This document shows, piece after piece, positions 53,380 to 55,914 of a stretch of 64,000 bases of DNA (positions within the stretch are counted from its first letter, which is position 1; the number at the start of each line of letters is the position of its first letter). The position numbers and the translations under genes are program-made. Under the pieces are notes generated by a model. The model did not search any database, was not told the origin of the DNA, and saw only the letters and a program-made list of their open reading frames with translations. The stretch is from Neisseriaceae bacterium ESL0693 (GTDB taxonomy: Bacteria > Pseudomonadota > Gammaproteobacteria > Burkholderiales > Neisseriaceae), in assembly GCA_029433475.1 (NCBI GenBank), contig JAQTIE010000006.1, positions 1-64,000 of the forward strand. Reading direction: 5' to 3'.

Positions 53380-55914
53380 TTACAATCGGGTTACGCGGCG
53401 AATGTGGGCGATGGAATGCAGTGCCCTGATGATTTGGTTGAGTTGTTGTAGTGTCTGAATGCGCAGGAAGAAGCGAAATTCAATAAATCCTTCCGTACCA
53501 TCCTGTTTCTGGGAAGGAGTGTCAACCGACTCGATATCACCGCCATGGGTTGAAATGGTCTGGGCAATGGCGGCCAGTAAGCCGCGCGAATCCTGAGCGT
53601 AAATCAGTAAAGTGGTGGGGTAGGTATCGGCCTGGAAAGTATCCCAGTCGGCATCGAGTTGATTGTCAGGTTCAGTATCCAGAATGTGCTTACAGTTATC
53701 GCGGTGAATAATCAGTCCCTGATCTTTGACCAGCAGCGCTCTGATCGCGTCACCCGGGATGGGATTACAACATTTGGCCAGATGCATTCTGCCGGTTTCA
53801 CTGCCAGAAATTTTAATGGGCGATAATTTCACGGTATCGCCGAAATGTTCTTCAGCCAGATCAGCAATGTGCATGGCCACAGAAATGGGTTGTAATCGTC
53901 CGGTGCCCACATCACACAAAATATCTTCAAAAGTAATATTTTTATTGGCTAAATCAGATAAATATTTGTCTTTAAGGCTTTCTGACCATAATACATTGGA
54001 AGGCAACAAGCTGGATAAGGCTTTTTGCAGCAGATTCTCGCCGAGCTTAATGGCATCAGTACGGTTCATGTTTTTAATCTGACTGCGAATGGCGCTACGG
54101 GCACGGCTGGATACGGTAAAATTCAGCCAGGCCGGATTGGGTCGCGCTTGCTCGGAAGTGATGATTTCCACAGTGTCACCGGTATGCAGACGGGTGCGCA
54201 AAGGCATCATATTATGGTTGATACGGGCAGCTACCGTATGATTACCGATATCGGTGTGGACAGCGTAAGCAAAATCAATGGGTGTTGACCCTTCGGGCAG
54301 TACCATGATTTTACCGGTTGGGGTAAAGGTATAGACTTCGTTGGGAAACAAATCTACTTTTACATGTTCCAGAAATTCAACGGCATTGGCGCTGTGTGCT
54401 TGTAAATCAAGAATGGTTTGCAGCCATTGGTGTGTGCGCATCTGTGCCTGGGTAAAGCTGCTTTGTTCGCCGGTCTGGTGCATCCAGTGACTGGCAATGC
54501 CGCCTTCGGCCACAACGTCCATTTCATAGGTGCGGATCTGTACTTCAATGGGTAAGCCGTAAGGACCGACCAAGGTGGTATGCAGGCTTTGATAGCCATT
54601 ATTTTTAGGGATGGCAATATAGTCTTTAATTCTGCCGGGTCTGGGTTTGTAGAGACTATGCAGGGCGCCCAGTGCTGCATAGCAGGCCGGAATGCTGTTT
54701 ACAATGACGCGAAAAGCATAAATATCCATTACATCGGCAAAATGCAGTTTTTTATGGCGCATTTTCTGATAAATGCTGAAGAGATTTTTTTCTCTGCCTT
54801 TAATCTGTGCTTCAATATTGGCACTGACCAGATGCTGGCTGAATGCCCGCAATACCTTGCCGACTACATCGCGCCGGTTACGCCGGGAAGCCTGTAAGGC
54901 TTTTTGCAGTACTTCGTAACGGTGCGGATACAGGTGCTGGAAGGATAAATCCTGTAATTCGTGATAAACCTGATTAAATCCGATGCGATTGGCCAGTTGC
55001 GCATAGATTTCCATGGTTTCTTGTGCAATGCGCCGGCGACTCTGTGGTTTTTTGGCGCCTAAGGTACGCATGTTGTGTAAACGGTCTGACAGTTTGACGA
55101 TAATGACGCGCAAATCTTTGGTCATGGCCAGAATCAGTTTGCGAAAACTTTCAGCCTGTGCTTCCTGATGGCTGTTGTATTCCAGTTTTTCGAGTTTGGA
55201 CAGGCCATCCACCATATCGGCGATGGTCTGGCCAAACGTTTCTGTGATCTGTGTTTTACTGGTGCCAGTATCTTCCAATACATCATGTAAAATGCCGGCG
55301 CACAAGGCTTGTATGTCAACATGCCATTCAGCCAGTTGCGTGGCTACGGCGATGGGGTGAGTAATATAAGGCACGCCACTATTGCGAAATTGGTCATGAT
55401 GGCTGGCGATGCCGAATTCACATGCCTTTTGCAATAGTTTTTTCTCATCTGCTGAAAGATAGCTGGCCGTTTTAAAGAGTTTATCCTGCTCTGTTTTGAT
55501 GATGGCCTGATAGGTTGCCTCGATTTGCGTCCGGATTTGTTGCAGTTGCTGATCTTTGCTGGCTGAAGGATCGGCTTGAATTTGGCTGATAAGCCGATTG
55601 CCGACGGCGCCTAATTCCGATTCCAGTAAAGGGCTATCCGGATTCAGTGCCATATCCTGTAATGCGGTTTTGATCAGTATCGCTGCCAGTGCATGGACGC
55701 GGTGATGTTCTTTGGCCAGTTCGGTAGTGAGGATAAAACTGCGCTCAAGCAGCGGAGTTTTCTGGTGTTGCTGTGCCAGTGTATATACATAGGCACAGGC
55801 AGTTTCCAGTAGGTGCCAGCGTTCTTTTTTGTTTAAATAACCCGTTTTTTCAAACAAAGCCGACCGCCAGGTATCGACTTGGGTTGAATAAGGCAAACTG
55901 GGTGCAAATATCAT
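53380..55914 (-). CDS. spoT: Bifunctional (p)ppGpp synthetase/hydrolase SpoT with an extra N-terminal HD-like domain
   Basis: 844 residues from ATG 55914, 13 bases after rpoZ; the frame is open for 41 more codons inside rpoZ. The active HD hydrolase domain is at about 146-300 (HDVLEDT, His210-Asp211). Then follow the synthetase (KGREKNLFSIYQKMRHK, IPKNNGYQSLHT), TGS (TPTGKIMVLPEGSTPIDFAYAVHT) and a C-terminal ACT domain. Usual SpoT/RelA length is about 700-750; the excess is residues 1-140, which align with the HD domain (LFEKTGYL with LFKTASYL, and ALAAILIKTALQD with ALCAGILHDVLED) but have Lys82-Thr83 in place of His-Asp. Linkage to rpoZ and gmk is standard for SpoT. Confidence 0.93.
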   Translation of the reverse strand: MIFAPSLPYSTQVDTWRSALFEKTGYLNKKERWHLLETACAYVYTLAQQHQKTPLLERSFILTTELAKEHHRVHALAAILIKTALQDMALNPDSPLLESELGAVGNRLISQIQADPSASKDQQLQQIRTQIEATYQAIIKTEQDKLFKTASYLSADEKKLLQKACEFGIASHHDQFRNSGVPYITHPIAVATQLAEWHVDIQALCAGILHDVLEDTGTSKTQITETFGQTIADMVDGLSKLEKLEYNSHQEAQAESFRKLILAMTKDLRVIIVKLSDRLHNMRTLGAKKPQSRRRIAQETMEIYAQLANRIGFNQVYHELQDLSFQHLYPHRYEVLQKALQASRRNRRDVVGKVLRAFSQHLVSANIEAQIKGREKNLFSIYQKMRHKKLHFADVMDIYAFRVIVNSIPACYAALGALHSLYKPRPGRIKDYIAIPKNNGYQSLHTTLVGPYGLPIEVQIRTYEMDVVAEGGIASHWMHQTGEQSSFTQAQMRTHQWLQTILDLQAHSANAVEFLEHVKVDLFPNEVYTFTPTGKIMVLPEGSTPIDFAYAVHTDIGNHTVAARINHNMMPLRTRLHTGDTVEIITSEQARPNPAWLNFTVSSRARSAIRSQIKNMNRTDAIKLGENLLQKALSSLLPSNVLWSESLKDKYLSDLANKNITFEDILCDVGTGRLQPISVAMHIADLAEEHFGDTVKLSPIKISGSETGRMHLAKCCNPIPGDAIRALLVKDQGLIIHRDNCKHILDTEPDNQLDADWDTFQADTYPTTLLIYAQDSRGLLAAIAQTISTHGGDIESVDTPSQKQDGTEGFIEFRFFLRIQTLQQLNQIIRALHSIAHIRRVTRL

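Follow-up and report, generated by a model that had tools for sequence, protein, structure and literature searches.

The spoT gene in the analysed DNA (the window, 64,000 nucleotides of Neisseriaceae bacterium ESL0693) encodes a long RSH protein with a degenerate partial copy of its own HD domain placed in front of the active one. This copy arose by duplication once, in a single clade, and has decayed; it is kept under constraint, and the ppGpp-binding rim of the active HD domain has changed in the same clade. We infer that the extension contacts the hydrolase cleft and regulates the hydrolase.

The extended SpoT and its gene

The gene, its neighbour and the active domains of the product are as follows.
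53380–55914, minus strand: spoT, encoding an extended long RSH protein of 844 aa
55928–56131, minus strand: rpoZ, directly upstream of spoT, with its stop 13 nt before the spoT start
54925–55479, minus strand: active HD (ppGpp hydrolase) domain, residues 146–330, catalytic residues intact (Pfam HD_4, E 9e-45)
55282–55287, minus strand: catalytic His210-Asp211 (H78-D79 of A. baumannii SpoT)
54469–54798, minus strand: synthetase domain, residues 373–482, motifs intact (Pfam RelA_SpoT, E 4e-37)

The gene order on the minus strand is gmk–rpoZ–spoT, and spoT starts with the ATG at 55914, 13 nt past the rpoZ stop. The protein is SpoT by every feature tested. It scores 704.6 bits with TIGR00691 (cut-off 499) and has the HD–SYN–TGS–ACT architecture of the long RSH, SpoT[HS], according to Pfam. 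Pfam and NCBIfam together place the HD domain at residues 164–312, the synthetase at 373–482, TGS at 527–586, AH/RIS at 599–685 and ACT at 763–843; the synthetase motifs YQSLHT and EVQIRT are present. The hydrolase residues R45, Y51, H54, H78, D79, E82, D83, K140, R144 and N147 are invariant in all 14 distinct extended SpoTs. Since no other intact HD_4 hydrolase site was found in the genome, the HD domain of RelA being degenerate, the hydrolase of this SpoT presumably works. The RelA paralogue (L002, G000:C24:98738-100900) is ordinary, with an independently decayed pseudo-HD that has neither the HD pair nor the extension, and RelA and SpoT represent the standard division of labour in this genome.

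The number of extra N-terminal residues is about 131–143. The original prediction, made from the window alone, that residues 1–140 exceed the usual length agrees with the open frames of ordinary Neisseriaceae SpoTs, which are mostly 712–787 aa, and with the NCBIfam and Pfam RelA-SpoT models, which begin only at residues 150–166, none of them covering 1–143. From the active HD domain on (the count starting 40 residues ahead of PYITHP), the extended proteins have a body of 702–703 aa and ordinary Neisseriaceae SpoTs one of 701–702 aa; the N-terminus is therefore a pure addition.

Duplication, decay and spread of the extension

Three features describe the added region.
55522–55914, minus strand: N-terminal extension, residues 1–131, a partial and decayed copy of the HD domain of SpoT (approximately helices 1–7), from profile and shuffle tests and AlphaFold2
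55666–55671, minus strand: Lys82-Thr83 at the site of the catalytic His-Asp, from the alignment; K, Q or R followed by T, I or A across homologues
55468–55557, minus strand: junction, residues 120–149, predicted to form a single unbroken helix that links the extension to helix 1 of the active HD domain (full-length AlphaFold2 model, pLDDT about 78–87)

The predicted residue pairs were confirmed; they lie at offsets of 126 (LFEKTGYL/LFKTASYL), 125 (LLETAC/LLQKAC) and 128 (both TTELAKEH and ALAAILIKTALQD), and the 5-residue loop deletion falls between them. Smith–Waterman alignment of the extension with the protein's own HD domain gives a score of 80, whereas shuffled sequences give a mean of 28 and a maximum of 58 in 500 (Z = 10); Z ranges from 6.6 to 14.8 in 14 further homologues. 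In profile–profile comparison, the extension scores 77 (E 6e-13) against the HD domains of 23 ordinary Neisseriaceae SpoTs and 56 against the paired own HD domains, with maxima of 20 and 23, respectively, in 200 column shuffles. These shuffle tests rule out chance similarity. A search of the genomes with the extension profile retrieved the own HD domain with E 2e-7 and ordinary Neisseriaceae SpoT HD domains with E down to 1e-12; it found no match to the RelA of the genome, and an origin from this paralogue was rejected.

In the profile–profile alignment, residues 6–131 match the first part of the HD domain collinearly. The repeat unit opens with the usual SpoT N-terminus (APxxxYxxxxxxxRxxLFxxTxYL) and runs to about the 'QAESFRKLI' helix (alpha7) of the active copy, stopping before the KLSDRLHN helix; copy 2 restarts at YxxIIxxAxxxLLxTAxYL. 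Judged from these alignments, the extension is a tandem duplication of about 125–130 codons and not of the whole HD domain. The idea of a degenerate tandem HD domain before the active one thus holds as regards duplication and decay; as regards a whole domain it does not, since the copy stops after roughly two thirds of it. Only two positions are retained from the ancestor in copy 1 and lost in copy 2, too few to argue from. Sequence searches of Pfam, NCBIfam and PDB with the extension gave no useful match, Pfam HD_4 did not match residues 1–143 in any of 15 homologues, and a scan of viral contigs found nothing.

The catalytic His-Asp pair (residues 210–211) corresponds to Lys-Thr (82–83), as predicted, and to Lys/Gln/Arg followed by Thr/Ile/Ala among homologues; H54 is replaced by Arg. 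The guanine-holding loop (R45–Y51 in A. baumannii SpoT) is five residues shorter, and everything from alpha8 onward is absent, including the half with K140, D143, R144, N147, K158 and R161. Residues 1–143 contain neither the His-Asp metal motif nor a complete HD_4 domain. Judged by its sequence, the extension is unable to hydrolyse ppGpp through the known mechanism. It was also suggested that the extension might bind an alarmone. Its homology to a ppGpp-binding domain, the invariance of Asp87 (the D83 equivalent) across extensions and the near invariance of Glu86 would suit a sensor of (p)ppGpp or GTP in the relic HD pocket. However, since the R45–Y51 loop is largely deleted and the pocket half with K140 to R161 is absent, binding in the usual HD manner is unlikely, and with His54, His78 and Asp79 replaced as well, we regard such a sensor as very improbable.

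AlphaFold2 predicted the extension, from extension sequences only (no templates and no HD rows), to be a compact domain of six helices (pLDDT 85.8, pTM 0.83), which correspond to HD helices under the alignment. In a Foldseek search of PDB, the top TM-scores and probabilities among the listed matches belonged to RSH HD domains, but with E about 1 or above: SpoT 7qpr gave TM 0.52 and probability 0.63, and RelSeq 1vj7 gave TM 0.50, probability 0.63 and rmsd 3.8 over 98 columns, neither with a significant E-value. The model suggests a partial, rearranged HD fold rather than a complete one. The full-length model, from which the continuous junction helix is taken, is unreliable beyond residue 240, where the alignment is too shallow.

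The extension was found in 17 of the 83 Neisseriaceae species genomes, and the extended SpoTs form one clade with support 100/100. What had been noticed in one SpoT is therefore no peculiarity of that protein; it is fixed across a whole Neisseriaceae clade. By genus, the extended genomes comprise 13 of 14 in g1 (Snodgrassella, bee gut symbionts), both in g3 and the single ones in g6 and g11. The last three genera are probably among Stenoxybacter, Populibacter and Vitreoscilla, since a core-gene tree unites these with Snodgrassella in one branch (PMC5390963). Among 399 sampled genomes of the order and 274 sampled genomes of the class, no extension was found outside Neisseriaceae; the sole, weak class-level match (L084) was a chance match to an antitoxin-like ORF.

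Two assemblies deserve mention. In G070 (97% complete), the one g1 genome without the extension, no spoT was found, only relA, which is probably explained by an assembly gap; loss of spoT with relA present, if true, would be striking. G059 (99% complete, 2% contaminated) has two equal-scoring spoT matches, C17:4820-5818 and C22:129561-130559, representing either a true duplicate or an assembly artefact.

In the g1 homologues spoT starts about 13–25 nt past the rpoZ stop, a position that is kept in the genus, and no internal start is common to all species. Its dN/dS in close pairs is about 0.11–0.13, compared with about 0.03 for the HD domain and about 0.01 for the synthetase. A downstream start near residue 140 is therefore unlikely, and the conserved start and purifying selection likewise argue against a mis-annotated start or read-in from rpoZ. 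Because the start is conserved, no internal one is shared and dN/dS is low, the extension is, on this comparative evidence, translated and constrained; it evolves faster than the rest of SpoT.

The extension could also be neutral or structural baggage without any regulatory role: a tolerated duplication on which only folding or stability later came to depend (constructive neutral evolution). Its evolution, roughly fourfold faster than that of the HD domain relative to synonymous change, suits this explanation, as does the otherwise constant length of the SpoT body. However, the extension persists in four genera, among which amino-acid identity falls to about 40%; 33 positions are invariant, no loss was seen and purifying selection acts on it. 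We consider pure baggage improbable.

The ppGpp rim and possible control of the hydrolase

Two loops of the active HD domain carry changes specific to the extended clade.
55366–55389, minus strand: ppGpp loop, residues 176–183 (SpoTAb 44–51), with T44F, K46N and E49V/L/A
55039–55056, minus strand: phosphate/guanine loop, residues 287–292 (SpoTAb 153–158), with S153A, M154K, R155K and K158S

In A. baumannii SpoT numbering, ppGpp is coordinated by loops 44–51, 110–117 and 153–158 (PMC9974481). When full-length bodies of extended and ordinary SpoTs are compared, 17 fixed differences can be noted: nine in the HD domain, four in the synthetase, two in TGS, two in HEL/ZFD and none in ACT. Six of the 17 lie in the three ppGpp loops, which hold 16 of the 401 variable columns (P about 1e-5, for loops chosen after the pattern was seen and changes that are all on one stem branch). 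Extended SpoTs carry F44 (one has Tyr), N46, A153, K154, K155 and S158, while the ordinary members mostly have T44, K46, E49, S153, M154, R155 and K158; the replacement of E49 by Val, Leu or Ala is a further clade-specific change without a single fixed residue. In a control clade of ordinary SpoTs, one of 16 clade-specific changes falls in the ppGpp loops.

A single-HD Neisseriaceae SpoT (L021, genome G050), whose lineage is possibly near the sister group of the extended clade, already has F44, A153 and K154. Since this protein is not extended, some of the rim changes may be older than the duplication. For A. baumannii SpoT, the contacts made by K46 are described as redundant (PMC9974481), and the coincidence of the rim changes with the extension could be due to chance.

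Regulation of the hydrolase by the extension is plausible and gains indirect support from the clustering of the clade-specific changes around the ppGpp rim of the active HD domain. A single tandem duplication of the 5' end of spoT, about 125–130 codons, took place in the ancestor of the Snodgrassella-containing clade. Copy 1 lost metal and substrate binding, as seen in its sequence, and became what is predicted to be a compact helical pseudo-domain, joined to the active HD domain through the predicted continuous helix. This pseudo-domain would act in cis on the hydrolase cleft, covering or bracing the side that is open to solvent and holds the guanine and 5' phosphates of ppGpp, and would thereby set or gate ppGpp hydrolysis, leaving the synthetase and C-terminal domains largely untouched. 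That it acts in cis on the cleft to tune or gate hydrolysis is the most economical reading, and we hold it with moderate confidence. Somewhat more tentatively, this duplicated half-domain may serve the ppGpp hydrolase as an internal lid or allosteric arm and may have driven the remodelling of the alarmone-binding rim in the clade, which would be a new type of RSH regulation.

Alternatively, the extension might be a docking module for another protein, a nucleic acid or a second SpoT, without action on the HD cleft. Partner proteins control SpoT in other bacteria (PMC8012599), and invariant extension residues with no counterpart in ordinary HD domains, K29, E31, R32, R58 and R72 among others, would suit a new interface. 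Docking leaves unexplained, however, both the concentration of fixed changes in the ppGpp loops and the predicted continuous helical junction; we consider it rather doubtful.

Comparison with known RSH proteins

Wherever there is a RelA, SpoT serves as the principal ppGpp hydrolase, and the switching of its hydrolase is an active question. A natural SpoT variant that is fixed throughout a clade and combines an additional pseudo-HD with a remodelled ppGpp rim lends itself to comparison with the ordinary form, and the clade includes a genetically tractable member, Snodgrassella alvi. No description of a tandem or duplicated HD domain in RSH proteins was found in the open-access literature, most subscription journals being outside this scope, and the architecture is probably undescribed.

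The extended protein shares with SpoT[HS] of beta- and gammaproteobacteria (A. baumannii, PDB 7qpr) the HD, synthetase, TGS, helical/zinc and ACT domains, the length from the active HD domain on, the intact catalytic residues and the gmk–rpoZ–spoT neighbourhood, but differs in the extra N-terminal partial HD copy. In RelA, a catalytically dead HD domain regulates the neighbouring domain (PMC8012599). The extension resembles the pseudo-HD of RelA[hS], such as E. coli RelA, in being a dead HD, and perhaps in its working mode; however, the dead HD of RelA is its only one and acts on the synthetase, whereas the dead copy described here is extra, partial and placed before an active HD. The ordinary Neisseriaceae SpoTs (717–730 aa class) begin with APxxxYDxLTAEARxLLFxTAxYL...ACAYAF, the N-terminal stretch from which the duplicated unit evidently came. 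Unlike the extended SpoT, they have a single HD domain, and relative to them the extended rim has K46N, M154K, R155K, K158S and E49V/L/A.
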